Shown one piece after another: positions 6,703 through 22,589 of a DNA stretch of 34,294 nucleotides. Below the pieces are notes generated by a model. That model was not told the origin of the DNA and made no database searches. It was given only the letters and a program-made list of their open reading frames with translations. Position 1 is the stretch's first letter. Each line of letters starts with the position of its first letter. This stretch comes from Acidobacteriaceae bacterium (GTDB lineage Bacteria > Acidobacteriota > Terriglobia > Bryobacterales > Bryobacteraceae): positions 1 to 34,294 of the forward strand of contig JANYCV010000174.1 of NCBI GenBank assembly GCA_025360145.1, read 5' to 3'. The translations under genes were made by a program, and so were the position numbers.

Positions 6703-7341
6703 ATGTCAGCCGCCGCAATACCGATGCAAGGGCAGGCTTGGCTGACAGGTGCGAACAAGGCAGCGGACAACTGTTTGGATTCTGAAGCGCAACTGATAGG
6801 ACGGTGCCTGACAGGCGAGGATGCGGCCTGGGAAGACTTGATAAAGGTCTATACGCGACGGGTGTATGCTGTCTGCTATCGCTTCACGGGAACCGATGGA
6901 GCGGCGCAGGACTTGACGCAGGAAGTGTTTCTGCGAGTGTTTAAGACGCTGAAGAGTTTCCGTTCGGGCGAGGGTTCGTTCGCGGTCTGGTTGAACCGTT
7001 TGACGCGGAATCTGCTGATCGATAACTATCGCAGGACGAAGCTGGAGCGGGCGACGGGTTCGATTGAAGACCAGCTATTGACACTGGAGCAAACGGCGGT
7101 TGGGTGGGGGCGTGCCGATAGCATGCTGGCGGGGCGCGAGGCAAGCGAGTTATTGCAGGGTGCTTTGCAGAAGCTGTCTCCGGATCTGAGAGAGACGGTG
7201 ATCCTGCGCGACATTGAAGAACTGGAGTACCGTGAGATTGCCAAGATCCTGAATATACCGGAAGGCACGGTGAAATCGCGGCTAAACCGGGGGCGGGCGG
7301 AACTGGCCCGAATCCTTCGCCGGCATAAGGTGGCAGTATGA
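6703..7341 (+). CDS. ECF sigma factor (sigma-70 family, RpoE-like)
   Basis: 'AAQDLTQEVFLRVFKTLKSFRSGEGSFAVWLNRLTRNLLIDNYRR' region 2 and 'LSPDLRETVILRDIEELEYREIAKILNIPEGTVKSRLNRGRAELARIL' region 4. Confidence 0.95.
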   Translation: MSAAAIPMQGQAWLTGANKAADNCLDSEAQLIGRCLTGEDAAWEDLIKVYTRRVYAVCYRFTGTDGAAQDLTQEVFLRVFKTLKSFRSGEGSFAVWLNRLTRNLLIDNYRRTKLERATGSIEDQLLTLEQTAVGWGRADSMLAGREASELLQGALQKLSPDLRETVILRDIEELEYREIAKILNIPEGTVKSRLNRGRAELARILRRHKVAV

Positions 7342-7949
7342 GGCCGGATGAGAATGCAGGCGTAGCGATGAACTGCAGCGACTTTGAAGAACTGTTGTGC
7401 GACTACATAGACGGCACGCTGGACGCAGGGCGGAAGCAGGCGGTGGAAGCGCATCAGCGGGAATGTGCGGCTTGCGCGGAGTTTGCCCGCGACGTGAAGG
7501 GTGCGGTGGCGTTCATGGAGCGCGCCGGGGATGTGGTCGTTCCTCCGGAGTTGCTTACTAAGATTGCGTTCCATATTCCGGAATCCGCCGGACGGACGGT
7601 GCAAGCAGGCGGAGTGCGTGCCTTGTTCGCAAAATGGCTGCAGCCGGTGGTGCAGCCGCGGTTTGCGATGGGCATGGCGATGACGATTCTCTCGTTCTCG
7701 ATCGTGGCGCGGTTTGCGGGAATTGAGCCGCGGCAATTGAAGGCATCTGACTTGAGCCCGGCGAAAGTCTGGGCGGCGGCCGACGATCGGGTACACCGGT
7801 CGTGGCAGCGGGCGTTGAAGTATTACGATAGCGTGCGGCTCGTCTATGAAGTCCAGTCGCGATACAAGGAATGGACGGAACAGGAAGACGAGGATCGAAG
7901 CACTACGGGTGCGGGAAGTAAGCCCGCGGAGGAGCAGAGCAGAAAATGA
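7338..7949 (+). CDS. Anti-sigma factor with zf-HC2-type zinc finger and one TM segment
   Basis: 'CSDFEELLCDYIDGTLDAGRKQAVEAHQRECAACAEF' (HxxxCxxC); TM 'FAMGMAMTILSFSIVARFAGI'; overlaps the sigma gene by 4 nt; ATG at 7368 is an alternative start. Confidence 0.88.
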   Translation: MRPDENAGVAMNCSDFEELLCDYIDGTLDAGRKQAVEAHQRECAACAEFARDVKGAVAFMERAGDVVVPPELLTKIAFHIPESAGRTVQAGGVRALFAKWLQPVVQPRFAMGMAMTILSFSIVARFAGIEPRQLKASDLSPAKVWAAADDRVHRSWQRALKYYDSVRLVYEVQSRYKEWTEQEDEDRSTTGAGSKPAEEQSRK

Positions 7950-8626
7950 ATTGCGCAAATCATCCAGAGGCAGCAACGGCATATTGCAGAACGTGCGGTA
8001 AGCCGCTATGCCCGGCGTGCCAGCGAACCAGCATGGGCACTGTCGTGTGCGAGGAACACTTCGTTCCCGAGGCGCCGCCGGTGCCCGATCCGCAGGCGGC
8101 CTACTCGCCTTACACGGCTCCGTCCCCGGGCGCAACACCTTATACTGCGCCAGCGGGGGACTCTGCGCCATCGCCCGGCCTGGCGTTTATTCTCGGCTTG
8201 ATTCCCGGTGTAGGGGCGATCTATAACGGGCAGTATGCCAAGGGCCTGATCCACGTGGTGATTCTGGGCACGCTGATCAGCATCCTCAGTTCAGGCGCGG
8301 CCGGCGGACTGGAGCCGCTGTTTGGAATGCTTACGGGGCTCTGGGTGATCTACATGCCGTTTGAGGCATATCACACGGCGAGCAAGCGGCTGCGGGGCGA
8401 ACCGGTGGACGAGTTTTCGAGCGTTATCCCGCTGAAGCATCAGACGTCGGGATTCCCGCTGGCTCCCATCATTCTGATTGGCTTCGGCGTGATCTTCCTG
8501 TTGAACAACCTGGAGATTATCCGGCTCTACCAGGTTCTGCGTTACTGGCCGTTGTTCCTGATTCTTTTGGGCGTCTATATGCTTTATACGCGGCTTGCGC
8601 CCGGCGGGGTGGATCGTGAACGCTAA
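7946..8626 (+). CDS. B-box-type zinc finger + DUF5668/TM2-like membrane protein
   Basis: 'MNCANHPEAATAYCRTCGKPLCPACQRTSMGTVVCEEHF'; 'GLAFILGLIPGVGAIYNGQYAKGLIHVVILGTLI'; 'APIILIGFGVIFLLNNLEIIRLYQVLRYWPLFLILLGVYMLYTR'. Confidence 0.85.
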   Translation: MNCANHPEAATAYCRTCGKPLCPACQRTSMGTVVCEEHFVPEAPPVPDPQAAYSPYTAPSPGATPYTAPAGDSAPSPGLAFILGLIPGVGAIYNGQYAKGLIHVVILGTLISILSSGAAGGLEPLFGMLTGLWVIYMPFEAYHTASKRLRGEPVDEFSSVIPLKHQTSGFPLAPIILIGFGVIFLLNNLEIIRLYQVLRYWPLFLILLGVYMLYTRLAPGGVDRER

Positions 8627-8804
8627 TCTGGCATGTGCGATTCGTGGTCCGATCATTCTGATCACGCTGGGCATTTTATTTGCGATTGACCATTTTGGAT
8701 CGTTCAGCTTTAGCCGGACATGGCCGGTATTGATCATCGTAATCGGACTGCTGAAGCTGTTTGAGCGGGCAGGTGCGCCGCGGGGCGGGGGGCTTCCACG
8801 ATGA
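8616..8804 (+). CDS. Small LiaI/DUF5668-like membrane protein (GTG start)
   Basis: VNANLACAIRGPIILITLGILFAIDHFGSFSFSRTWPVLIIVIGLLKLFERAG; overlaps the upstream stop by 11 nt and the next gene by 4 nt. Confidence 0.75.
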   Translation: MNANLACAIRGPIILITLGILFAIDHFGSFSFSRTWPVLIIVIGLLKLFERAGAPRGGGLPR

Positions 8805-10255
8805 AACGCGGCTCCATTGTCGCGCCGATCATTCTGATCCTGATCGGCGGAGTTTTCCTGCTGAATAACATCCGTCCTGATTTTTCGGTGCTGGATACGC
8901 TGGCGAGCTATTGGCCGTTCATTTTGATCGCCTGGGGAGTGCTGCGGCTGGCGGAGGTCCTGATTTCCGCAGCGCGCCAACCGCACCCGCAGCCGGGTTT
9001 TCAACCGGGTTCACCGCATGGGGTTTCGGGCGGTGAATGGGTATTGATTGTGTTCCTGTGCCTGCTGGGCTCCGGCGCCTTCTTCGTGAAAAGGCACGCG
9101 GGCCATTGGTCGCCTAACAGTATCCGATCCAAGATCATCGGCGATTTCGGCGACGCTTTCGACTACCCGATTGAGGAAAAGAAAGTAGCCACCGGAAAGG
9201 CTCCGCGGGTGTTGATCGAGAACTTCCGTGGAAATGCGCGGGTGGTGGGCACGGATGCATCCGAGGTGAAGGTCAGCGGGCGAAAGACGGTGCGAGCCTT
9301 GCAGCAGGCGGATGCCGACGATGCCAATCAGCGGTCGCCGATCGAACTGAGTAATCAGAACGAGCTGGTGGTGATCCGGATGAACCAGGACCGTGCGCCG
9401 GGGGATCGGACACTGACCTCCGATTTGGAGATTTCGGTGCCGCGAGGTTCCACGGTGGAAGGCCGGGGACGGTACGGGGATTTCGACATCAGCGAACTGG
9501 GCGGCAACGTGGAGATCATCAGCGACAACGCGGGGGTGCGGGTGCAGAATATCGGGGGCGGCGTGCGCGTGGATCTTCGGAAAAGCGATCTGATCCGCGC
9601 GGTGAACGTGAAGGGCCCGGTGGAAGTGAAGGGCCGCGGACAGAACGTGGAGATGGAGAACATTGAAGGGCCGGTGACGATTACTGGCGCCCATAGCGGC
9701 GATCTGCAATTCCGCAATCTGGCAAAGCCGCTGCGGTTCGACGAAGACCGGACGAATCTGCGGGTGGAGAAGACGCCTGGGCAGATCCGGATGGCGCGCG
9801 GTTATTTCCGCGGGACGAACCTGGTGGGCCCGGTGCAGCTTACGGCGCGCTCCAAGGACGTTGAGATTTCCGGGTTTACGCAAAGTCTGGATCTATCGAT
9901 TGAACGGGGCGATATCGATCTGAGACCGATGCACATGCCGCTGTCGAAGATGGATGTGCGGACCGGCAACGGAGAGGTTTCCCTGGCGCTGCCGGCGGGG
10001 TCTAAGTTCGATCTGCGGGCGACTGTGCAGAAGGGTGAGGCGCAGAATGAATTTGGAGATCCGATTCGAGCGGAGACGTCGGGACGAGGGGCTACGCTGC
10101 GGGGCAGGGCGGGCGACGGGCCGGCAATTGTGTTGAATGCGGACCATGGTTCGGTGATAGTCCGGAAGGGAGATGGATCGCTGCCTCCGCTGCCGCCTTT
10201 GCCGCCGGTGGCGCCCTCCGGGAAGATGCCGAAGATCGTGGTGGAACGCAATTAG
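8801..10255 (+). CDS. DUF5668 membrane domain + DUF4097-like beta-strand repeat (putative adhesin) protein
   Basis: 'APIILILIGGVFLLNNIRPDFSVLDTLASYWPFILIAWGVLRL' then beta repeats 'GDFDISELGGNVEIISDNAGVRVQNIGGGVRVDLRKSDLIRAVNVKGPVEVKGRGQNVEMENIEGPVTITGAHSGDLQFRNL'. Confidence 0.88.
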   Translation: MKRGSIVAPIILILIGGVFLLNNIRPDFSVLDTLASYWPFILIAWGVLRLAEVLISAARQPHPQPGFQPGSPHGVSGGEWVLIVFLCLLGSGAFFVKRHAGHWSPNSIRSKIIGDFGDAFDYPIEEKKVATGKAPRVLIENFRGNARVVGTDASEVKVSGRKTVRALQQADADDANQRSPIELSNQNELVVIRMNQDRAPGDRTLTSDLEISVPRGSTVEGRGRYGDFDISELGGNVEIISDNAGVRVQNIGGGVRVDLRKSDLIRAVNVKGPVEVKGRGQNVEMENIEGPVTITGAHSGDLQFRNLAKPLRFDEDRTNLRVEKTPGQIRMARGYFRGTNLVGPVQLTARSKDVEISGFTQSLDLSIERGDIDLRPMHMPLSKMDVRTGNGEVSLALPAGSKFDLRATVQKGEAQNEFGDPIRAETSGRGATLRGRAGDGPAIVLNADHGSVIVRKGDGSLPPLPPLPPVAPSGKMPKIVVERN

Positions 10256-10604: not shown

Positions 10605-11225
10605 TTAAAAATGGCTTTGGGATTCTTTCGTAAACCCTGACGCGGGCGGCTCTGTGGAGTCGCCGGATTGCGAAACAGAGCCAATTTCGGGCGGAGGCTC
10701 CGGGTGGCTTATCGCGGGCCGGATGGACGCCATCGGCTTTTGCGAAACAGAGCCAATTTCAGTTTTCTTCCTTTCTTTCTGGAGCTTGCGGAGTTCGGTG
10801 ATGGCGCGGTAGTAGGAGCGCTCGATTGTTGTCTTGTAGCGGCGGATGTGGTCGGACTGCTTGCTGCTGGAGTGGAAGCATTGGGTTAGCTGGCCGTCCG
10901 GATCGGGGCTACACTTGGCGACGGCCGCATTTAGTTTTTCGGCTACCAGAATGTCGTTGTCGTAGGTGCGGGTTTCCACGCGGCGGACCCGCATGAGACG
11001 CCAGGCGCTTTCGGCAATCTGCGTTATCAACATTTCTTCCGGCGTGTCCGCGGGTTTCCAGTCATCGGGCAGATCATGACGCAGGGCTTCGTATTCTTCG
11101 GCGTCCTCGCCTTTGATCACTACGTGCTTCGACGGCGGGCCGTGGCGGAGTGCGTTGTCGCGCATCTTTGCTTTCCCGGCTTCAGTCACCAGTCCGGTGC
11201 ATTCGGCGGCGGTTGTGGATGTCAT
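10605..11225 (-). CDS. Hypothetical protein with C-terminal EIGSVSQ repeats
   Basis: 206 aa; 'ITQIAESAWRLMRVRRVETRTYDNDILVAEKLNAAV', 'YKTTIERSYYRAITELRKLQKERKKTEIGSVSQ...PEIGSVSQ'; upstream of the ATG on the minus strand is AAAGGAGTACGACG (SD-like). Confidence 0.75.
   Translation of the reverse strand: MTSTTAAECTGLVTEAGKAKMRDNALRHGPPSKHVVIKGEDAEEYEALRHDLPDDWKPADTPEEMLITQIAESAWRLMRVRRVETRTYDNDILVAEKLNAAVAKCSPDPDGQLTQCFHSSSKQSDHIRRYKTTIERSYYRAITELRKLQKERKKTEIGSVSQKPMASIRPAISHPEPPPEIGSVSQSGDSTEPPASGFTKESQSHF
10668..10760. repeat. 21-nt exact direct repeat TTGCGAAACAGAGCCAATTTC at 10668-10688 and 10740-10760
   Basis: Identical 21-mers 72 nt (24 codons) apart, encoding EIGSVSQ twice on the minus strand. 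Confidence 0.95.
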
Positions 11226-11580
11226 CGTCGTACTCCTTTCTAAAATTACGTTTCTGACTTGAAGATAGCTTCGAGCGCGCGGAGCGGGACGGGATTTTTG
11301 GCTAAGTGATTGAATGCGGGGGAAATTGAGTTCTCAGTTTTTTGGGAACCAAAATATGGCGACCCTGCGGGCCGCCAGTCGCGGTGGTGAAAGAGGGGCG
11401 GGGCAAGTTGCAAGGAGGGTTACTTGTGGACCGCGCTGCGCTGGACAAGTGCCGCGTGTTCGGGATGCGATTTAGATCTCAACCGAATGTAGATGCCAGC
11501 GGACCGCACACAGCATCATCCGCGGTTCAAGCTTTCGCCATTTGAACAGGGCGGGCCGGCTAGATCCCGGCAGTGACTTT

Positions 11581-12273
11581 TTACTTGTCATCCGGCATGG
11601 CGGCCTTGCCTTGTAGCGTCTGGGACCGGATCATTTTAAGCTGCCCATTCACGCGCTCTTTCAAGACGCGCCGATACACTCCACGGGTTCCTGTCGACTG
11701 TTGAGTTTCGGAACGAACAAGAACCAACCTGGAGCCTTCAAGCGAGTATTCCCGCTTCTCGTATAACAGCCCGCCTTCTCCGTTTCTGCGAAACGCGGAG
11801 AGCTTGTGCGTACCCGGCTCAGGACGTAGGACAGGAAACGCTCCGAGGGCGGAGTAGAGGCCAGAATGCGCATCAAAAAGCCAATAAAGCGCCGTGGCAT
11901 TCGCAACGCCGCGCTCGATGATCAGCATCAAATCGGCGTTGCCGTCGAAATTGATATCCTGTCCGCCAAAGAAAAAGCTTTCTCCCTCAAAAACGGGCAT
12001 CGCTCCCGCCACGGGCAGGCGTTGAAGCGGCTTGGTATCTCCCTGCCGCGTCACCTCGATCGCCGTAATTGTCCGTCCCGCCGCGGGGTCAGATTTGATC
12101 TCAAACCGGAACGAGTATGGCGGCAGACGGGCAGATGGTTGAAACTTGCAGGGCTGGCAGTCCGTGACGTTAGCGGCCTTCGGCAGAGTAGTCGTCTCAG
12201 GCCGGGCACTTAGAGCGACTAGCATCGCCAGAGCGGTGACGCGAAGATAATAAGACAATTGGCTGAGAAACAT
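11581..12273 (-). CDS. Secreted protein resembling XAC2610/FG-GAP-type hypothetical proteins
   Basis: Signal-like N-terminus MFLSQLSYYLRVTALAMLVALSARP; 'FFFGGQDINFDGNADLMLIIERGVANATALYWLFDAHSGLYSALGAFPVL'. Confidence 0.7.
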   Translation of the reverse strand: MFLSQLSYYLRVTALAMLVALSARPETTTLPKAANVTDCQPCKFQPSARLPPYSFRFEIKSDPAAGRTITAIEVTRQGDTKPLQRLPVAGAMPVFEGESFFFGGQDINFDGNADLMLIIERGVANATALYWLFDAHSGLYSALGAFPVLRPEPGTHKLSAFRRNGEGGLLYEKREYSLEGSRLVLVRSETQQSTGTRGVYRRVLKERVNGQLKMIRSQTLQGKAAMPDDK

Positions 12274-12304: not shown

Positions 12305-13093
12305 TTAAGGCAAAAGAAGACATTTCGCGCGGGCAAGCCGCGCAACGCGGTCGGCTAGTCCGTTTACGCCGCCGTTAATACGGCGCGTGATGCCGTTTAC
12401 ATTGTCGCTATCGGCGAGCGCATTCAGGCCGCGGGTGGCCCAGAACCAGCATGAACAATCGACGGCAATCCGCGGGTCCGACGCGAGTAGAGTATTCCGC
12501 GGCTTGGTGAGATAGTCCTGGCCCCGCGCCGCGCCGTAGGCTGCGTAGTTACTCCGTCCGGTGATTTGAATGAGACCACGTCCTTTGAACCGCACGCCGT
12601 CGCCAGGACTTGTATTCCCGAGGTCCTCACGGCCCTCATAGGCAGCTCCGCTGGCTATCTCCTCGCTAAAGCGGAAGCTTCCGCTTTCGTGGCCGAGCTG
12701 AGCTAGAAAGTGAGCTGTCCGAAGCGGCGTCGTAATCCCGTTCGCTTCCATGTTGTCGATCAACGGCTGGAAGTAGCGGGAGACTGCCGAGACGGTGGCT
12801 CCGGGCATGATTGCCAAAAGCTTCCCTTGCGTCAATCCTGGATCCAGACCGGCTTTCAGGCGCTGATAGGTTTCGCTGCCAGGCTCGATCAACTTGGTGG
12901 GGGTGGCTATTCCGACAACCCTGGTTTGAAAGAGGGCAATCGCACCGATGGTCGCCTTTCCGATCCCGCCGTCCTCTTTCAAAAAGGCTAGCGGAATAAG
13001 CGACCCAATGTTGAGATTCAGCAGAATCTGCACAATCCGCACGTCCTCTTTTCGGTTAATCCCTTTTTCGCCAACGGACTTAACGAGACACAT
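12305..13093 (-). CDS. GH19 chitinase/endolysin-like protein with N-terminal peptidoglycan-binding-like region
   Basis: 'AHFLAQLGHESGSFRFSEEIASGAAYEGREDLGNTSPGDGVRFKGRGLIQITGRSNYAAYG'; N-terminal 'GINRKEDVRIVQILLNLNIG...DGGIGKATIGAIALFQ'. Start at 13093 chosen for its AGGAG SD; track ORF starts at 13129. Confidence 0.88.
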   Translation of the reverse strand: MCLVKSVGEKGINRKEDVRIVQILLNLNIGSLIPLAFLKEDGGIGKATIGAIALFQTRVVGIATPTKLIEPGSETYQRLKAGLDPGLTQGKLLAIMPGATVSAVSRYFQPLIDNMEANGITTPLRTAHFLAQLGHESGSFRFSEEIASGAAYEGREDLGNTSPGDGVRFKGRGLIQITGRSNYAAYGAARGQDYLTKPRNTLLASDPRIAVDCSCWFWATRGLNALADSDNVNGITRRINGGVNGLADRVARLARAKCLLLP

Positions 13094-13172
13094 ATGCGCT
13101 CCTCTAGAGAGTTTCATTATATATAACAACAGGCATCGGCGACTTCTGCCGATTACGAGTCCGACGAGCTCA

Positions 13173-14130: not shown

Positions 14131-16386
14131 CTAATGCGACGATGTGTTTTTGCTGATGCGCTGGGGTTCGAGCGTCAGCGACAGTGCCATGGCGGCCCAG
14201 CTTGTTCCGGCGGCGGAGATCCACTGATCGTGGCCATACGGGAATCCACTTTCAAAGTAGGGCTGCAGCCAGATGGACCGTGTTTTCACGTGCCAGGAGC
14301 CGTCGGCGGCCTGGGTGCGCAGGAGGAACTTCACCCCGCTAGCGTAGACCGGGTCGGAGGCTGGCATCTTGCCGGCGGCGTTGAGCGCGTAAAGCGCTTG
14401 ACCCGTGGCATAGGCATCCGAGCCCATGGTGGGTAGCTGGCTCCAGCCGCCATCGGGGCGCTGGGTTGCGGTCAGTGTCTTGACGGCGGCGGCGACTGAG
14501 GCGGACTTTGAATTCGACCAAGCCAATCCCAGCAAGTGGAAAGCCTGGTCTTGGGTGGTGGCCGGTTTGGCGGCTTCGAGCCATGCGGCAGCTCGAGCGA
14601 TCACTCTGCCGGTGTCGGCCTTCTCGGCTGGCGGCCCGTAGGTCTTCAGCGCATAGATCGCCAGGGCGGCGGTCTGATACAGGCCGGTGTTCATCGGCGG
14701 CCGGCGGCTCTCGAATGCCTGCCAATTGCCTTCGGGCGTTTGCATCGCCTTTATGTACCGTATGGTTGCATCGGTGTACTCATCCCTCGGCACACCGTTG
14801 TTTGCGGAATCGAACATTTCCCAACCCATGCCAGTTACACCGACGACCACGAGATCCATGATACGTTCCGGATTCAGCGTGTGCATGCTTTGCGGAAGCT
14901 GCGGGATCAGTTTGGGGGCAGGTAGCCCACGATCGCGAGCGATGCCGGCCGCGGCCGAAGGCAGATCCTGCGCGTGGCAGGAGTTGCAGCCGCCGATGCG
15001 GATGAAGTTATGGCTCTGCTTTTCGAGGAGCGCCAGCGCGGGTTTCACCGCATCCGCGATGGACCTTTCCCGTCCGCTGCCGTCCGGAGCCGGTGCCACG
15101 CCGAGTAGTTTTCGTTCTTCCGCTGGGACGCCGAGCAGGCGGGCCACTTCGCTGTCTCCACGCTTGGAGGCGAGCATGCGGGCGGTTTCGTCGTCACCTT
15201 TGACAGTCTGGTCGGCGCCTTTCGCGAGGAGCAGCTTAACGATGCCGGCAGGCATTGCGTCGGCTCCCGCGGCGTACAGCAACGGAGAGTAGCCCCGAAT
15301 GTCCTGGACGTTCACGTTTGCGCCACTATCGAGCAGAAGCTTCACCGTCTCTTCGTTACCGGCTGTGGCTGCGTCGGCGAGCGCGGATTCGTTGCGCTTG
15401 GTTCTGGCGTTCGGGTCGGCGCCCTTTTCAAGGAGCAGCCGAACGGCTTGGGGCCTGCCGGTCTGGGCGGCGGCCATGAGCGCGGTTCCGCCCGCTGCAT
15501 TCTTTGCGTTCACGTCGGCTTTCTTCTCAATAAGAACGCGCATGGCTTCGAAGTTGGCTCGGGCGGCGGCGATGAGGGGAGTCATTCCCGCCAGAGTTTT
15601 TGCGTCCGGACTCGCGCCCTTCTCGAGCAGCAGGCGAAGGACCGGAACGGCATTCCCCATGGAGGCGGCCTGGTAGAGCGGAGTGCGGCCATCAATGCTT
15701 TTGGCGTTGACGTTGGCGCCGTGGTCGAGGAGCAGCCGGACCTTGGCCTCATCGTGCAGGGCCCAGAAGAGCGGGGTGGATTTTCGCTTGTTGCCAGCGT
15801 TTGAATTGGCGCCATGGTCGAGGAGCAGCTTCATTGTGGCGAGGTTGCCGAAGCTGGCGGCGTGGTGGAGCGGCGTGACGCCCGCGGTGTCCTGCGCATT
15901 GACGAGTTCGGGGCTGGTGGCGATAAGCCTTTCGACGGCTTTGGTGTCGCCGGAGCGGACGGCGGCGATGAGTGCAGCCAGTTTCGGATCGACGGGCTTG
16001 GCGGGACGGTCTTCCTCGACCTGGATGCGGAAGTCGGCGCCCTGGTCGATCCAGGCGCGGAGGACTCCGATCTCTTCGTCAGAGAGAGCACCGGTGGGGG
16101 GCATTTGCAAGCCGCCGTCGCCGTTAACCAGGCGGCGGATGAGTTTGCTTTCGGCGCTGTTGCCGGGCATGATGACGGGGCCATAATCGCCACCGCGGAG
16201 TGCGTTCTGGCGCTTGTCCAGACGAAGACCGGATTGCTGGGCTTCTTCGCCGTGGCAGGAGTGGCATTTCTGGGCTAAGATCGGCTGAACGTCCTTTTCG
16301 AAATCGACCTTAAAGTTGGCAGGGGCTGGAAGTTTGGTGTCGGCGAACGCCATGGACACGGTGATGAGGAGAAGGGTTGCGCGCAT
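14131..16386 (-). CDS. Exported multi-domain protein: planctomycete-type cytochrome c (PSCyt1-like) + ankyrin repeats + second CxxCH motif + terpene-cyclase/prenyltransferase-like alpha/alpha-toroid
   Basis: Start MRATLLLITVSMAFADTK at 16386; 'VDFEKDVQPILAQKCHSCHG'; about seven ankyrin repeats ('AGVTPLHHAASFGNLATMKLLLDHGAN...'); 'IGGCNSCHAQ'; QW-like 'QTPEGNWQ', 'QRPDGGWSQ', 'QAADGSWHV'. Confidence 0.9.
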   Translation of the reverse strand: MRATLLLITVSMAFADTKLPAPANFKVDFEKDVQPILAQKCHSCHGEEAQQSGLRLDKRQNALRGGDYGPVIMPGNSAESKLIRRLVNGDGGLQMPPTGALSDEEIGVLRAWIDQGADFRIQVEEDRPAKPVDPKLAALIAAVRSGDTKAVERLIATSPELVNAQDTAGVTPLHHAASFGNLATMKLLLDHGANSNAGNKRKSTPLFWALHDEAKVRLLLDHGANVNAKSIDGRTPLYQAASMGNAVPVLRLLLEKGASPDAKTLAGMTPLIAAARANFEAMRVLIEKKADVNAKNAAGGTALMAAAQTGRPQAVRLLLEKGADPNARTKRNESALADAATAGNEETVKLLLDSGANVNVQDIRGYSPLLYAAGADAMPAGIVKLLLAKGADQTVKGDDETARMLASKRGDSEVARLLGVPAEERKLLGVAPAPDGSGRERSIADAVKPALALLEKQSHNFIRIGGCNSCHAQDLPSAAAGIARDRGLPAPKLIPQLPQSMHTLNPERIMDLVVVGVTGMGWEMFDSANNGVPRDEYTDATIRYIKAMQTPEGNWQAFESRRPPMNTGLYQTAALAIYALKTYGPPAEKADTGRVIARAAAWLEAAKPATTQDQAFHLLGLAWSNSKSASVAAAVKTLTATQRPDGGWSQLPTMGSDAYATGQALYALNAAGKMPASDPVYASGVKFLLRTQAADGSWHVKTRSIWLQPYFESGFPYGHDQWISAAGTSWAAMALSLTLEPQRISKNTSSH

Positions 16387-16532: not shown

Positions 16533-17657
16533 GTGAACCGGACGACAGCCGGACTTTTGTTTCTTGCGGGAACCGTGTTCGCACAGGATCTGTCGATCGA
16601 CGACGCATTGCGGATGGCGTCGGAAGGACGGCTGGCGGAAGCAGAAACGGCGCTGCGGGCGTTGACCGTTCAAGCCCCGAATGACGGTGATCTGCGCACC
16701 CGTTTGGGTCTTGTGCTGCTTAAAGAGAAAAAGCTGGACGAGGCAGCGGATGAACTCGGCAGGGCAACAACACTGGACCCGGCGTCCGTATTCGCATGGC
16801 TCGCCCTGGGAGACGTTCGTCTGCGGCAGGGCAACCACGCTGAAGCCGCCCGGAGTGCGAAGCGGGCTCAGTCGCTGGCGGGGAAATCCGCGGCGGGCTG
16901 GAAAGCTCTCGCTGTCTTGCAGGAAAGGATCGGAGACAACACTGGCGAGGTGCAGTCGTTGCGGTCCGCCATCCGGTTGGCGCCCGAAGACCGCAGTCTC
17001 TATGTCCGTTTGACAAATCTTCTAATCGAGCACCGGAACGCGGACTCCGCGCTTGCTGTCGCTACTGCCGCCTTAAACCGTTTTACAACCGACGCTGAAC
17101 TATTGCGGCTGCGCGGCTTGGCTCTGTACGGACTTGGCCGGAAAGAGGAAGCTCTTGACGCATTCCTGGCCGCAATGGATGCCGCGCCCGCGGACGAGGT
17201 GGTCCATGCGTCTGTTGAGACTTTAATCGAAGATGCAGGCGATCGACTGCCGCAACTGACGCAACGGCTGCGTCGATTCAGGGAGCAGCGGCCCGCGAGT
17301 CCGCTTGGTCCCTTTCTGCTGGCGCTTGCTTCCAGATCTCCCGAGGAGAAACAATCGCTTGTGCGGGAGGCGATTGGCTTGGAATCCAGTTTTTGGCCGG
17401 CGTACTTTGAGTTGCATCGATTGCTTCGCGGCCAGGGTGACAGTTTACAGGCCATCCAGGCATTGAAGGAAACACTCCGGCTTAATCCGAATCACGAAGG
17501 CGCGCACTTCGCGCTTGCGGAGCTTTACCTCGAAGCGGGAGATCGGGAGAAGGCGCGGGAACACCGGCTGCAGCATGATCGGTTGAGGGCAGGAGCCGCC
17601 ACCGAAGAGCGCCGGCGAGCCGCGGAAAACCAGCGCCTGCCGGTGGGGACTCAGTGA
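16533..17657 (+). CDS. Tetratricopeptide repeat protein (GTG start)
   Basis: TPR-like repeats: 'DALRMASEGRLAEAETALRALTVQAPNDGDLRTRLGLVLLKEKKLDEAADELGRATTLDPASVFAWLALGDVRLRQGNHAEAARSAKRA'. Confidence 0.88.
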   Translation: MNRTTAGLLFLAGTVFAQDLSIDDALRMASEGRLAEAETALRALTVQAPNDGDLRTRLGLVLLKEKKLDEAADELGRATTLDPASVFAWLALGDVRLRQGNHAEAARSAKRAQSLAGKSAAGWKALAVLQERIGDNTGEVQSLRSAIRLAPEDRSLYVRLTNLLIEHRNADSALAVATAALNRFTTDAELLRLRGLALYGLGRKEEALDAFLAAMDAAPADEVVHASVETLIEDAGDRLPQLTQRLRRFREQRPASPLGPFLLALASRSPEEKQSLVREAIGLESSFWPAYFELHRLLRGQGDSLQAIQALKETLRLNPNHEGAHFALAELYLEAGDREKAREHRLQHDRLRAGAATEERRRAAENQRLPVGTQ

Positions 17658-19378
17658 GCGTAAGCGGCCTGCGCGGTAATGCCCAGGCCCTCGCGCACCT
17701 GAATTTCCTGATTGGCCGCGACATCCGAAATCGATTCCCTTGCGCCGCTGGGCCAGACAATTTCGATGCGATCAACCTTGGTCGCGCTGCCCAGTCCGAA
17801 GTGCTGGCGGAAGTCGGATTGCGACAGATAGCTTGATCCGCTGGTCACTATCGACGTCTGTTTGGAGCTGCCAATTGACACGATGACCTTGGCGCCGATC
17901 GCGCTGCTGTTCGACTGGACGCCCGTCAACTTGACGAGAATCGAATTTCCCTTATGGCCAAAGTTTTTGAGGACGGTCGGCGGTGCGTTGGAGTTGACTA
18001 TCACAATCTCCGGATTCCCATCGCTGTCAAGGTCCGCGACAGCCAGGCCGCGGGAGCAGTGAGCCGCCGAAATACCCGCGCCGGCCAGCTTGCTCACATC
18101 CCGGAACGCTCCGTTACCCAGGTTCCAGTACAACAGTCTCGGCATTTCGTACGCGTCCGCGGCGTGCGCCTTTGCGAGTTCCGGATAGATATGGCCATTT
18201 GCAACGACCACGTCCTTGAATCCATCCTGGTCGATATCGACAAACTGCACTCCCCAGGCAACGTATCGCGTGTTCACTCCGTGCCCGGCGTTGACGGTCT
18301 GATTGGAAAAGAAGAGTTCGCCCAAATTACGGTAAATCGTGGTTGCCGTTTCATCTATGAAGTTGGTGCGAAGAATGTCCACCTTTCCGTCGTTATCGTA
18401 ATCGGCCACAGCCACTCCCATCCCGCCCTGTTCTTCCCCGTTGTCGCCATAAGCCACTCCGGCTGGCACCGCGATATTTTCGAATGTCCCGTCGTGTTTA
18501 TTGCGATAAAGAATGCTGGGAGTGGAATCGCAGGCAACGTAGATATCGGGCCAGCCATCGTCGTCGAAGTCCGCGGAAGTCACACTCAGACCATAGTGCG
18601 TGCCGGCGAGCGTGATACCGGCGGATGTTGACACATCGCGGAAACGGCCGCCGCCTTCATTGTGAAACAGACGGCCGCCACCGGTTTTAAAACCGCGAGG
18701 TCCGCAGAACACTTGCAGTCCGAGCCAGTTGCAGGCTGGGTTTGCGGTAATTCGACGGATCTGAGCCGGTGGGAACGAGACGTAGCTGGAGACAAACAGG
18801 TCGAGCCGGCCGTCGCGGTCGTAATCCAGAAATGTGCAGCCCGTGTTGAAAGTATTTGGGGTTGCCGGAAAGGGTATCGCGCGAAAGTGGCCCTTTTCGT
18901 TGTGCAGCAGTTGGTTTTCTCCGTACCTTGTGATCAGCAGGTCGGTAAAGCCGTCGTTATCGAAATCTCCGGCGCAGACTCCCTCAGACCAGCCGCTTGT
19001 CGCCAACCCGGCTTCGCGCGTAACGTCGCTGAATTTGCCGCTGCCGCCATTTTTGTAGAGCACGCTCGGACGCGACGTGCCGTCCAACCGCGCGCCGTTC
19101 ACCAGCAGAACGTCAATTTTTCCGTCGTTGTTATAGTCGAACAGGGCAACGCCGTTCCCGGTCATCTCAAGAATGTGCTTCTTGGTGAGCGCGCCGCCGT
19201 AGAAATTGGGGGCAGTGATTCCGAAAGTGGACGCGACGTCCCGCATGTCAATCTTGGGCGGGGGAACAGCGGAGTTTGTTTTAGGGGAACTGCGGGGAAC
19301 TGCTTTGGCCGTACCACCCATCCCCTGCTGCGCGGGAACGGGTAGTACAGCCAGCAAAACCAGCAAAAGACAGCGCAC
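17651..19378 (-). CDS. CRTAC1-like protein (FG-GAP/VCBS repeats + ASPIC/UnbV domain), GTG start
   Basis: Repeated 'DYNNDGKIDVLLVNGAR', 'DFDNDGFTDLLITRYGENQLLHN', 'DLDSDGNPEIVIVN'; ASPIC/UnbV-like 'HFGLGSATKVDRIEIVWPSG'. Confidence 0.93.
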   Translation of the reverse strand: MRCLLLVLLAVLPVPAQQGMGGTAKAVPRSSPKTNSAVPPPKIDMRDVASTFGITAPNFYGGALTKKHILEMTGNGVALFDYNNDGKIDVLLVNGARLDGTSRPSVLYKNGGSGKFSDVTREAGLATSGWSEGVCAGDFDNDGFTDLLITRYGENQLLHNEKGHFRAIPFPATPNTFNTGCTFLDYDRDGRLDLFVSSYVSFPPAQIRRITANPACNWLGLQVFCGPRGFKTGGGRLFHNEGGGRFRDVSTSAGITLAGTHYGLSVTSADFDDDGWPDIYVACDSTPSILYRNKHDGTFENIAVPAGVAYGDNGEEQGGMGVAVADYDNDGKVDILRTNFIDETATTIYRNLGELFFSNQTVNAGHGVNTRYVAWGVQFVDIDQDGFKDVVVANGHIYPELAKAHAADAYEMPRLLYWNLGNGAFRDVSKLAGAGISAAHCSRGLAVADLDSDGNPEIVIVNSNAPPTVLKNFGHKGNSILVKLTGVQSNSSAIGAKVIVSIGSSKQTSIVTSGSSYLSQSDFRQHFGLGSATKVDRIEIVWPSGARESISDVAANQEIQVREGLGITAQAAYAH

Positions 19379-19379
19379 T

Positions 19380-22300
19380 TTAGAAGCTTACTTTCAGGGC
19401 GAACTGGATCAACCGCGCATTAACCGACGTTGAACTGATCTGGCCGAAAGCCGCGGAATCGAGGCTGGTCTGCGGATTGGCGAAATTGGCATGGTTGAAG
19501 ATATTAAAGAATTCCGTGCGGAACTGCGTCACCAAACGTTCGCGGAATTTGAAATCCTTGAACATGGAAAAATCCACGTTACTCTGGCCTGGTCCGCGAA
19601 AGATACCGCGGCCCGAATTGCCGTAGCGGTCGCGCGGAGCCAGAGTCCATGCCGCCTTGTTGATATAGTTTTGAAGGTTGTCGCGAAGAGAGCCGCTGGC
19701 ATACGTGAGCGCGGATCCGGCGACTACGTCGGAATTGAACGCGCCGGCAACATCGGTCGCGATGCCGCCAAGATCGATGCCGCTGTTGCGATTGATGACC
19801 GTGAGAGGGTTTCCCGTCTGAATAACGAAGAACCCGTTTGCGGACCAGTTGTTGAACAGGAACTTACCTGCCATTGAGTGAAACTTGTTGGGCAGATCCT
19901 GCACGAAGGTCACAGCGAGCCGTTGCGTGCGGTCGAAATTTGCCGGGCCTTTCGCGCGGCTGAAATCATTCCAGGGAGTCCGGAAGATGCTTGTCTGGAA
20001 CCGCGAGCCATCGTCACCATTGCCTAGAGTCTTTCCGAAAGTGTAAGAGGCTTGCATGTTGGCCGTGCCAAGACGTTTGCGGAACGTGAACTGGAAAGAA
20101 TGATAAGTGGAACTGCCGCCTTGGCCGGTAGCGGTAATATCGCCGAAACCGGGGAACTGCCGCAGCAGCCCGCCGCCGGACTGCGGGATCAGAGGATTGA
20201 GATTGCGGCGGGCAATGAGGTGTGTGCCCTTGGTGCCGATATAGGCTGTTTCAAGCAGGACGTTATACGGAAGTTGTTTCTGGACGCTGAAATTGTACTG
20301 CCAGGCGTTGTCGGTCTTGGTGTTCGGCTCGATGGCCGTGATCACCAATGCGTCGGTCGTCTTGGTGGGAAAGGGAATCTTTGTGGCGTCATAGCCGGGG
20401 TCGACGAAAGCCCAGTTATCGGGCTGGCTGAGCGAGCATCCGCTGCCGGCCACCTTGCAGTCTTGCGTCACTCGCGTGAATACGGGCGGGTTGGAGAAAA
20501 AGCCCTGTGCGGTCTGGCCGCTGCGTTGATCGAAAAACAGGCCTGCGCCGGCGCGGATAACCCAATCGTTTCGGACCCGCCACGCGAGGCCGAGGCGAGG
20601 CGCAAAATTGTTCCAGTCGCCCTGGATGGTTGTGGGCGAAATGCCGTCGTGATTGGCCTGGATGAGCCCCGAATCCTTAAAAGAACCGACGCCCCGGTAG
20701 CGCTCGGGCAGAAAGCTGACGAAATCGAGGTCCGTTCCGTAAGGTTGCATGTGCGCTTCATAGCGGACGCCTGCGTTGATGGTGAGGTTTGGGGTAACCT
20801 TCCAGTCGTCGTTGATGAAAAGCCCCCACGTGGATTCGCGCATGTGCATTTGACCGGGGCCGGCCGCAAAGGTTTTCCGGCGCGGCTGGCTGAGCAGGAA
20901 ATCGGCGTATTCATCGCCGCTGGCCCCTCCATCGTAGAGCCAGGACCCGCGCGATTCCTGTGCGTTCTGCGGATTCAGTAGCGATATCTGATCTTCCACG
21001 CCGAAGCGGATGTTGTGCTTGGACTTTATCCAGGTGAAGGTCGCCCCTGCGGTGTAGCGTTTGATCAGATCGGTCCAGTTATTGGTGTTACCGAATGCCA
21101 CATAATTGGGAATATCGACGCGCGGAAGTCCGTCGATCAGTGTAACTCCGCTAATAGGTTTCAATCCCAGTGAAGCCGGGTCGACCTTGTTTTGGAAACT
21201 GATGAACTGGTCGGTATTGTCGAAACCGAAGCGGCCTTCCAGAATCACTGAGGGAGAGAACACGTGCGTGTGGGTCACCTGGCCCGAGTGTTTTTGGCGA
21301 TTGGCTTTCTGGCCGAAGCCGGGCAGGCCGGCGCCAAAAGGAGAATTATCCTTTTGCCAGCTTTCAAACCAGCGCCCGAAGATAGTGTCCTTTGTGCCGA
21401 ACTTGTGATCGATCCGGAAAGTGTACTGGTCGATATTCGTTGCAATAGCGCTGGCGGCAAAGAAGTTGTTGGCGCCGGACGCGAAATTCGGCGTGGGGAC
21501 GAACTGATCCTGAATGTTTTTTGAAACGCCGTTGATTCGGGAAGCTGGAATGATATTTTCGGGAAACGGCTGGCCAGTAGAGGGGTCGGTAATCCGTTTT
21601 GAGCCGAAATTCCCGATCCGCTGGTTAAGCGTGGGCACGATGCGGATGATGGACGCGCTGCTTGAATTCGCGTTCAATTGCCGCGAGCTTTCCCAGCCGC
21701 CAAAAAAGAAAGTCCGATCGCGGAATACGCGGCCGGCCGCATTGCCGCCGAACTGGTTCTGGTTGTTCTTTCCGCGAACCGGGCTGAAGAACGGGCGGGC
21801 GTTCAATTCCGTGTTGCGGAGGAATTCGTATACTCCGCCGTGCAGGGTATTCGATCCGGAACGGGTGGTGACGTTGATCACCGAACCCAGGTTGCGGCCG
21901 TACTCTGCGCTGTAAAGGCTGGTGAGAACCTTGAATTCGCTGAGGAACTCGATGCTGGGGGTGCCGTCTCCGTCGGGCGCATTATTCAACGGGTTGCTTG
22001 TGGGGACGCCGTCCACGAGGATATTATTCGATCCCCGCCGAGCGCCGTTGACGCTGACGCTGTCGCTTCCCGTGCCTGGGTTATCGGCATTGAAAATCGA
22101 GCCAATCACCCCGGCGGAAGTGCCCAGGATCTGGGTGAAGTTGCGGGTGGCAAGGGGGATCGACTGGATGGTCCGCTGTTCCACCACCTGACCGATAGTT
22201 GCCTTCTCGGTCTGTAAAAGTGGCGTTTCGGCAGTGACGGAGATCGTTTCTGTAACGGCTCCGACCGAGAGAATCAAATCGAGTCTGATCCGTTCCGTTG

Positions 22301-22589
22301 TATTGACGACAATATCGTTGCGCTGCAGCCGCTGAAAGCCAGGCTGCGCGATCAGCAGGCGGTAGGTCCCGGCGCGCATCAACGCAAACTGGAAATTGCC
22401 TTCGGCATCGCTTTCGGTTCGGATTTCGGTTCCCGTGTCCTGACGGACAGCGGTCACTTCCGCCCCGGCAATCACAGAGCCGGAGGAGTCTTTAATAACC
22501 CCGACCATAGATCCGGTAGTTTCTTGTGCCAGCACTGACACAGAGGAGATTAGGACGCTCAGCCCTAGAGCACAGAGAATAGTACGCAT
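19380..22589 (-). CDS. TonB-dependent receptor, Oar-like, with carboxypeptidase-regulatory-like domain
   Basis: 1069 aa; signal peptide; 'TGSMVGVIKDSSGSVIAGAEVTAVRQDTGTEIRTESDAEGNFQFALMRAGTYRLLI'; 'SVISVTTRSGSNTLHG'-type plug region (NVTTRSGSNTLHGGVYEF); C-terminal ...LKVSF*. Confidence 0.93.
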   Translation of the reverse strand: MRTILCALGLSVLISSVSVLAQETTGSMVGVIKDSSGSVIAGAEVTAVRQDTGTEIRTESDAEGNFQFALMRAGTYRLLIAQPGFQRLQRNDIVVNTTERIRLDLILSVGAVTETISVTAETPLLQTEKATIGQVVEQRTIQSIPLATRNFTQILGTSAGVIGSIFNADNPGTGSDSVSVNGARRGSNNILVDGVPTSNPLNNAPDGDGTPSIEFLSEFKVLTSLYSAEYGRNLGSVINVTTRSGSNTLHGGVYEFLRNTELNARPFFSPVRGKNNQNQFGGNAAGRVFRDRTFFFGGWESSRQLNANSSSASIIRIVPTLNQRIGNFGSKRITDPSTGQPFPENIIPASRINGVSKNIQDQFVPTPNFASGANNFFAASAIATNIDQYTFRIDHKFGTKDTIFGRWFESWQKDNSPFGAGLPGFGQKANRQKHSGQVTHTHVFSPSVILEGRFGFDNTDQFISFQNKVDPASLGLKPISGVTLIDGLPRVDIPNYVAFGNTNNWTDLIKRYTAGATFTWIKSKHNIRFGVEDQISLLNPQNAQESRGSWLYDGGASGDEYADFLLSQPRRKTFAAGPGQMHMRESTWGLFINDDWKVTPNLTINAGVRYEAHMQPYGTDLDFVSFLPERYRGVGSFKDSGLIQANHDGISPTTIQGDWNNFAPRLGLAWRVRNDWVIRAGAGLFFDQRSGQTAQGFFSNPPVFTRVTQDCKVAGSGCSLSQPDNWAFVDPGYDATKIPFPTKTTDALVITAIEPNTKTDNAWQYNFSVQKQLPYNVLLETAYIGTKGTHLIARRNLNPLIPQSGGGLLRQFPGFGDITATGQGGSSTYHSFQFTFRKRLGTANMQASYTFGKTLGNGDDGSRFQTSIFRTPWNDFSRAKGPANFDRTQRLAVTFVQDLPNKFHSMAGKFLFNNWSANGFFVIQTGNPLTVINRNSGIDLGGIATDVAGAFNSDVVAGSALTYASGSLRDNLQNYINKAAWTLAPRDRYGNSGRGIFRGPGQSNVDFSMFKDFKFRERLVTQFRTEFFNIFNHANFANPQTSLDSAAFGQISSTSVNARLIQFALKVSF

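Follow-up and report, generated by a model that had tools for sequence, protein, structure and literature searches.

Alpha/alpha toroids have been described in cyclases, prenyltransferases, complement thioester domains, glycosidases and transcobalamin, and CxxCH motifs bind haem covalently. We found neither a report nor a solved structure of a toroid with covalent haem in the open-licence literature and the PDB. PSCyt1 proteins are known, planctomycete-specific cytochromes c with no assigned function (PMC5615132). The sCache_heme domain (DUF3365/Tll0287) is a non-haem sensor fold that gained a short cytochrome-derived CXXCH piece, and NO binding has been demonstrated for domains of this kind (PMC12889525). 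An ankyrin protein, Cj1386, delivers haem to catalase (PMC11442138). Here, we analyzed a gene whose product has the order signal peptide, PSCyt1, about 8-9 ankyrin repeats, CNSCH and a single alpha/alpha toroid. Each of these folds is already known, and the combination of haem and toroid is, as far as we searched, undescribed: no account of it was found in open-licence papers. Pfam and NCBIfam give only partial squalene-cyclase matches to the toroid module, and none of the curated families searched describes a CxxCH-toroid.

The gene lies in a window (the whole stretch of DNA analyzed) of 34,294 nucleotides from an Acidobacteriaceae bacterium of soil (GCA_025360145.1, contig JANYCV010000174.1). 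The earlier note had placed it correctly at 14131-16386 and had left out the strand, which is minus. The frame encodes 751 amino acids and has 0 internal stops. Its anatomy, established computationally, is the following.

14131..16386, minus strand: whole gene P0001, 751 aa, with ATG start and stop; homologues have equal length and domain order
16342..16386, minus strand: probable Sec signal peptide MRATLLLITVSMAFA, residues 1-15, from the sequence and a family-wide hydrophobic N-terminus
16039..16305, minus strand: PSCyt1 class I cytochrome c domain, residues ~28-116 (Pfam PF07635)
16252..16266, minus strand: haem motif 1, CHSCH, residues 41-45; C41, C44 and H45 invariant in 55/55
16102..16104, minus strand: Met95, expected distal ligand of haem 1, in a QMPP motif; M95 and P96 invariant in 55/55
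15127..15984, minus strand: ankyrin solenoid, residues ~135-420, 8-9 repeats including caps (Pfam Ank families; helix pairs in the model)
14932..15060, minus strand: haem helical hairpin (helix, CNSCH, helix), residues 443-485, in the AlphaFold2 model
14974..14988, minus strand: haem motif 2, CNSCH, residues 467-471; C467, C470 and H471 invariant in 127/127 toroids
14167..15060, minus strand: alpha/alpha toroid together with its haem hairpin, residues 443-740 (AlphaFold2, Foldseek, Pfam SQHop_cyclase_C)
14722..14742, minus strand: QW-like motif 1, QTPEGNW, residues 549-555; Q549 in 119/127, W555 in 118/127
14443..14463, minus strand: QW-like motif 2, QRPDGGW, residues 642-648; Q642 and W648 in 126/127
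14293..14313, minus strand: QW-like motif 3, QAADGSW, residues 692-698; W698 in 127/127, D695 in 126/127
14215..14265, minus strand: conserved loop QPYFESGFPYGHDQWIS, residues 708-724, running into the last toroid helix; seven residues invariant

The signal peptide was called from the sequence and a comparison of hydrophobicity, not from a dedicated predictor. A hydrophobic N-terminal stretch is found in 53 of 55 full-length relatives versus 86 of 1100 internal control windows, which supports the previous suggestion of an exported protein. The 751-aa protein is thus probably secreted, and its most likely location is the periplasm. A CxxCH motif, the probable signal peptide and cytochrome assembly genes are present. 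The latter are encoded in the window's own genome (an assembly 74 per cent complete, in 651 contigs), which makes the attachment of haem to the protein plausible.

The N-terminal cytochrome had been read as a PSCyt1-like domain with a CHSCH motif, and PF07635 indeed matches residues 41-99 above its curated cut-off (E 6e-17, 62.4 bits against 22). The predicted class I axial pair of H45 and M95 is invariant in all 55 full-length members. Judged from sequence, the Cys, Cys, His and Met of haem 1 are those characteristic of a class I cytochrome c with His/Met ligation, a ligand pair typical of electron-transfer haems. The ankyrin repeats extend across residues 139-412 (Ank_2 E 4e-62, above the curated cut-off of Pfam), and their helix pairs are seen in the AlphaFold2 model, with pLDDT above 90 in most blocks. 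The repeats had been recognized before, but their number, put at about seven, was slightly low: the predicted structure adds a capping repeat at each end of the 7 full-consensus repeats, resulting in 8-9. We also considered an anti-phage system and an Ank effector. Both were discarded, as the PADLOC matches were confined to the ankyrin repeats and the NCBIfam matches were generic to ankyrins and far below cut-off.

The second haem motif of the earlier note is confirmed as CNSCH at residues 467-471. For the residue types considered in an alignment of 127 toroids, its two Cys, its His and the Trp of the third QW motif (W698) are invariant. A broader set reached down to members with 15-20 per cent identity to the module of the window, and there the only fully invariant columns of the module are C45, C48 and H49. 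The CxxCH is present in 136 of the 137 toroids that we collected, the single exception starting at a contig end. Since both haem motifs are invariant in the 55 full-length sequences, their presence is not due to chance. Furthermore, CxxCH is kept while PSCyt1 and ankyrins vary, which makes this motif the core of the module. By its pattern of conservation, the core unit is haem 2 with the toroid, and PSCyt1 and the ankyrins are variable add-ons. The three QW-like motifs proposed before are real and conserved across the 127 toroids. In the loop at residues 708-724, Q708, P709, Y710, F711, P716, Q721 and S724 are invariant in the 55 full-length members.

A haem lacking a fixed distal ligand may be five-coordinate, bound to water, or filled by a variable residue. 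Among the 127 aligned toroids, no second invariant His, Met or Cys was found for haem 2: no column of His or Met exceeds 64 per cent, and the best candidates are M733 (81/127), H699 (69/127) and M654 (67/127). The alignment suggests that the distal site of haem 2 is open or variable. A ligand that changes between members (Tyr, Lys, or a His from elsewhere) could occupy the sixth position.

AlphaFold2 gave a pLDDT of 91.4 and a pTM of 0.91 for the toroid module (59 sequences), and 87 and 0.86, respectively, for the full-length protein (55 sequences), in models built without haem. The CNSCH is placed between two long helices (443-463 and 474-485) which run into the toroid, and the haem hairpin would then be the first helical pair of the toroid. 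The Pfam profile SQHop_cyclase_C matches residues 617-736 (E 1e-8, above the curated cut-off), and it is matched in 59 of 59 toroids. When the toroid was searched with Foldseek against the PDB, the top matches were the monodomain class II cyclases 8PAK and 8PAJ (E about 1e-7 to 1e-6; for 8PAK, E 2.7e-7 and TM 0.55). They were followed by drimenyl diphosphate synthase, squalene-hopene cyclase, MstE (E about 1e-4) and lanosterol synthase, and lower down by complement C4, GH105, transcobalamin and farnesyltransferase beta. With TM-scores of about 0.5-0.55, the fold class is shared and the match is not close. Apart from the Foldseek matches, a weak one in the PDB, to 9y6s (E 0.16), was set aside as chance level. 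Hence, Pfam, AlphaFold2 and Foldseek agree on the squalene-cyclase-type alpha/alpha toroid that had been proposed from the motifs, and the structure prediction returned it with confidence. A profile of the haem hairpin matched, in the PDB, only a short stretch around the CxxCH of cytochromes (profile residues 38-63), and no solved PDB chain was found that matched both the hairpin and the toroid parts. The sequence of the hairpin suggests a piece derived from a cytochrome; convergence on a short motif is also a possible cause of the likeness.

To place the module among bacteria, we scanned the GTDB representative genomes and obtained 344 relatives. The best 80 of the 344 are mostly from Acidobacteriota (Bryobacterales, Solibacter, Sulfopaludibacter and others), and also include Planctomycetota and a few Verrucomicrobiota; the complete order of cytochrome, ankyrins, CxxCH and toroid is seen in 54 of these 80. 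The relatives were drawn from public genome assemblies, of which many are metagenome-assembled. The module is a common one among Bryobacterales and their relatives in the Acidobacteriota, and it was found in 27 of 61 genomes when the window's own genome was taken with 60 relatives. Across the phylum of the window, it was found in 9 of 297 sampled genomes. For the phylum to which a planctomycete locus belongs, the corresponding number is 24 of 294, many of the copies there being stand-alone proteins of ~350 aa; for that of a verrucomicrobial locus, it is 3 of 289. The 137 collected toroids comprise 61 cytochrome-ankyrin-toroid proteins, 40 toroids alone or cut, 14 ankyrin-toroid, 9 with another extension before the toroid, 8 toroid-ankyrin and a few others. 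The ankyrin and cytochrome labels switch several times on the tree, a count that contig ends inflate. The architecture, once viewed as an isolated oddity, is thus found in the same order in 61 of 137 toroids. It had also been asked whether this might be a common fusion that was already characterized. The fusion is recurrent, with its 344 relatives, but no published description was found in the open-licence literature. We give about even odds to the CxxCH-toroid being an undescribed family of c-type haem proteins, in which a terpene-cyclase-like toroid would have acquired a cytochrome-derived CxxCH hairpin and turned into a periplasmic haem enzyme or sensor of Acidobacteriota and Planctomycetota, later joined to ankyrins and PSCyt1 in several orders.

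Several other loci deserve mention. The window's own genome has two more CxxCH-toroid loci, on contigs C225 and C286. The former (L002, G000:C225:1071-3005, plus strand) encodes a 644-aa paralog in reversed order, with the haem-toroid first and the ankyrins after it. The latter (G000:C286:1294-4305) is fragmented across frames, with a stop inside one piece, and has the appearance of a degenerating copy or of a fault in the assembly. In a separate giant protein of the same genome (L217, G000:C420, ~9216-9527, minus strand; 1335-aa frame), a single CxxCH (HCMSCHTQSGVWGPAG) precedes QW-type repeats, and apparent HEAT-type helical repeats come next; this protein is possibly a second haem-toroid, more distantly related. 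L216 and L218 (G000:C181), which are close together, encode exported or lipoprotein toroids with QW motifs and without CxxCH, possibly haem-less relatives. Finally, L087 and L095, from assemblies labelled Pedosphaera and Opitutaceae, are placed deep within the Acidobacteriota clade on the tree, reflecting either horizontal transfer or mis-binned contigs.

In a comparison of 79 loci, no conserved neighbourhood was found that would hint at a substrate or a partner, and the next largest cluster of genes was common to only 6 of them. Next to the gene in the window lies a divergent TPR gene, and then a gene encoding an UnbV/ASPIC FG-GAP protein beside an Oar-type TonB receptor (upstream and co-oriented, 17651-22589, minus strand); no clear link to the flanking genes was seen in the window. 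A gene with a Glyco_hydro_19 match (chitinase or endolysin-like) is found at 12305-13129 on the minus strand, near genes without Pfam matches at 10605-12273. At L190-L194 (~6900-9600), a gene resembling FAD-dependent (flavoprotein) monooxygenases is located directly upstream of a stand-alone toroid, on the same strand; the stand-alone toroid at L191 occupies 8297-9304 and has ~336 aa. The pairing of monooxygenase-like gene and toroid is seen in five closely related Planctomycetota genomes, but the whole region is syntenic in these genomes, and the adjacency therefore says little.

A working terpene or hopanoid cyclase, or a lipid-modifying enzyme with a redox accessory, is one conceivable reading, given the likeness of the toroid to class II cyclases in both profile and fold; redox-linked modification of hopanoids or lipids had been put forward for this protein. 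However, the catalytic acid motif DxDD is present in 0 of 59 toroids. In the best profile alignment, T610-T-Q-D613 stands opposite the DIDD of a real squalene-hopene cyclase from the same genome; owing to the similarity among the repeats, other registers are possible, yet none gives DxDD. Two full squalene-hopene cyclases are encoded elsewhere in the same genome (656-663 bits, cut-off 431), whereas the toroid protein, which has a single toroid and is probably exported, scores 32.7 bits against the NCBIfam squalene-hopene cyclase equivalog (cut-off 431.1). No hopanoid gene was recognized near the locus in the window. The lack of DxDD, the two true cyclases elsewhere and the lack of a hopanoid gene nearby make a cyclase role highly improbable. 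A prenyltransferase was rejected as well. The Prenyltrans profile PF00432 gives 11.9 bits (cut-off 26.5), and the CxxCH holds the only invariant Cys and His of the 127 toroids, leaving an Asp/Cys/His zinc site of the prenyltransferase kind unsupported. Hence, neither the catalytic acid nor the zinc ligands that were to be looked for in the toroid were found. A haem-based action of the protein on a hydrophobic ligand is conceivable.

We propose that this protein is periplasmic and redox-active and bears two haems, one serving as a relay and the other, on a cavity fold, being reactive or sensing; we put the probability of this reading at about 0.5. Haem 1 would pass electrons to the respiratory pool or a partner, or accept them from there, and the ankyrins would serve to dock a partner protein and to keep both haems in place. 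Haem 2, its distal position open or variable, would bind or convert a small molecule at the toroid, such as peroxide, a diatomic gas, or an organic compound lodged in the cavity of the toroid. The reactive or sensing role is proposed because haem 2 has no invariant second His or Met. In relatives without PSCyt1, a separate cytochrome could act as the relay; as such relatives are many, the core seems to need no built-in one. Pure scaffolding, another option of the earlier note, is unlikely because both haem sites are strictly conserved. The protein might also be a haem-based sensor or regulator, in which haem 2 binds NO, CO or O2 or reports the redox state, the toroid shifts and the ankyrins signal. 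This would suit the lack of an invariant distal His or Met, the lack of fixed metabolic neighbours, and modules that stand alone or are variously fused, as in sCache_heme (PMC12889525). However, no signalling output domain was recognized in an architecture scan for cytochrome, ankyrin and toroid parts, and the added His/Met cytochrome better suits electron flow; we regard a sensor as possible but doubtful. Both haems could otherwise be relays for electron transfer only, with the toroid as a mere scaffold docking a partner or a ligand. Two c-haem sites in one exported protein, a class I His/Met haem 1 and the occurrence of PSCyt1-like segments by the dozen in the window's own genome are in line with this. 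Yet haem 2 has no conserved second ligand, and polar or charged residues of the toroid are conserved besides the QW motifs (D657, D695, R562, R703 and Q721), so pure electron transfer is in our opinion unlikely. Periplasmic haem handling, where the protein would carry or protect haem for another haem enzyme, has in Cj1386 a precedent for the link between ankyrins and haem, but Cj1386 is cytoplasmic and binds haem via a Tyr (PMC11442138), whereas the CxxCH is invariant here. We find this explanation very improbable.

If haem is indeed attached, a large set of proteins that now score only as squalene-cyclase-like would need reinterpretation as haem proteins, and for PSCyt1 a defined redox partner would become available for testing. 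The two-haem redox protein proposed here can be compared with four known systems. The squalene-hopene cyclase family (PF13243/PF13249, TIGR01507) is similar to the toroid over the QW part, but its members have two toroids and DxDD, whereas the 751-aa protein has one toroid and no DxDD. The cyclases 8PAK and 8PAJ (myxobacterial squalene-hopene cyclase family) and MstE likewise consist of a single alpha/alpha toroid of ~345 aa with QW-type motifs. In contrast to them, the 751-aa protein has no DxDD, is probably exported, carries a putative c-type haem hairpin at the toroid's N-terminal end, and is additionally fused to ankyrins and a cytochrome. The PSCyt1 proteins belong to the same phylum group and share an N-terminal PSCyt1, a CxxCH and a conserved Met-Pro-Pro; their usual partners are reported to be other planctomycete-specific domains and carbohydrate-binding modules (PMC5615132), instead of the ankyrins and toroid found here. 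The sCache_heme domains resemble the CxxCH-toroid in having a non-cytochrome fold, a strictly conserved CXXCH, and both stand-alone and fused forms, and they are sometimes fused to a cytochrome c domain, as is the toroid here (PMC12889525). Their fold is a Cache domain, whereas the module described here is by Foldseek and Pfam an alpha/alpha toroid, not a Cache domain. As far as is known, sCache_heme would thus be a parallel to the CxxCH-toroid and not its homolog.
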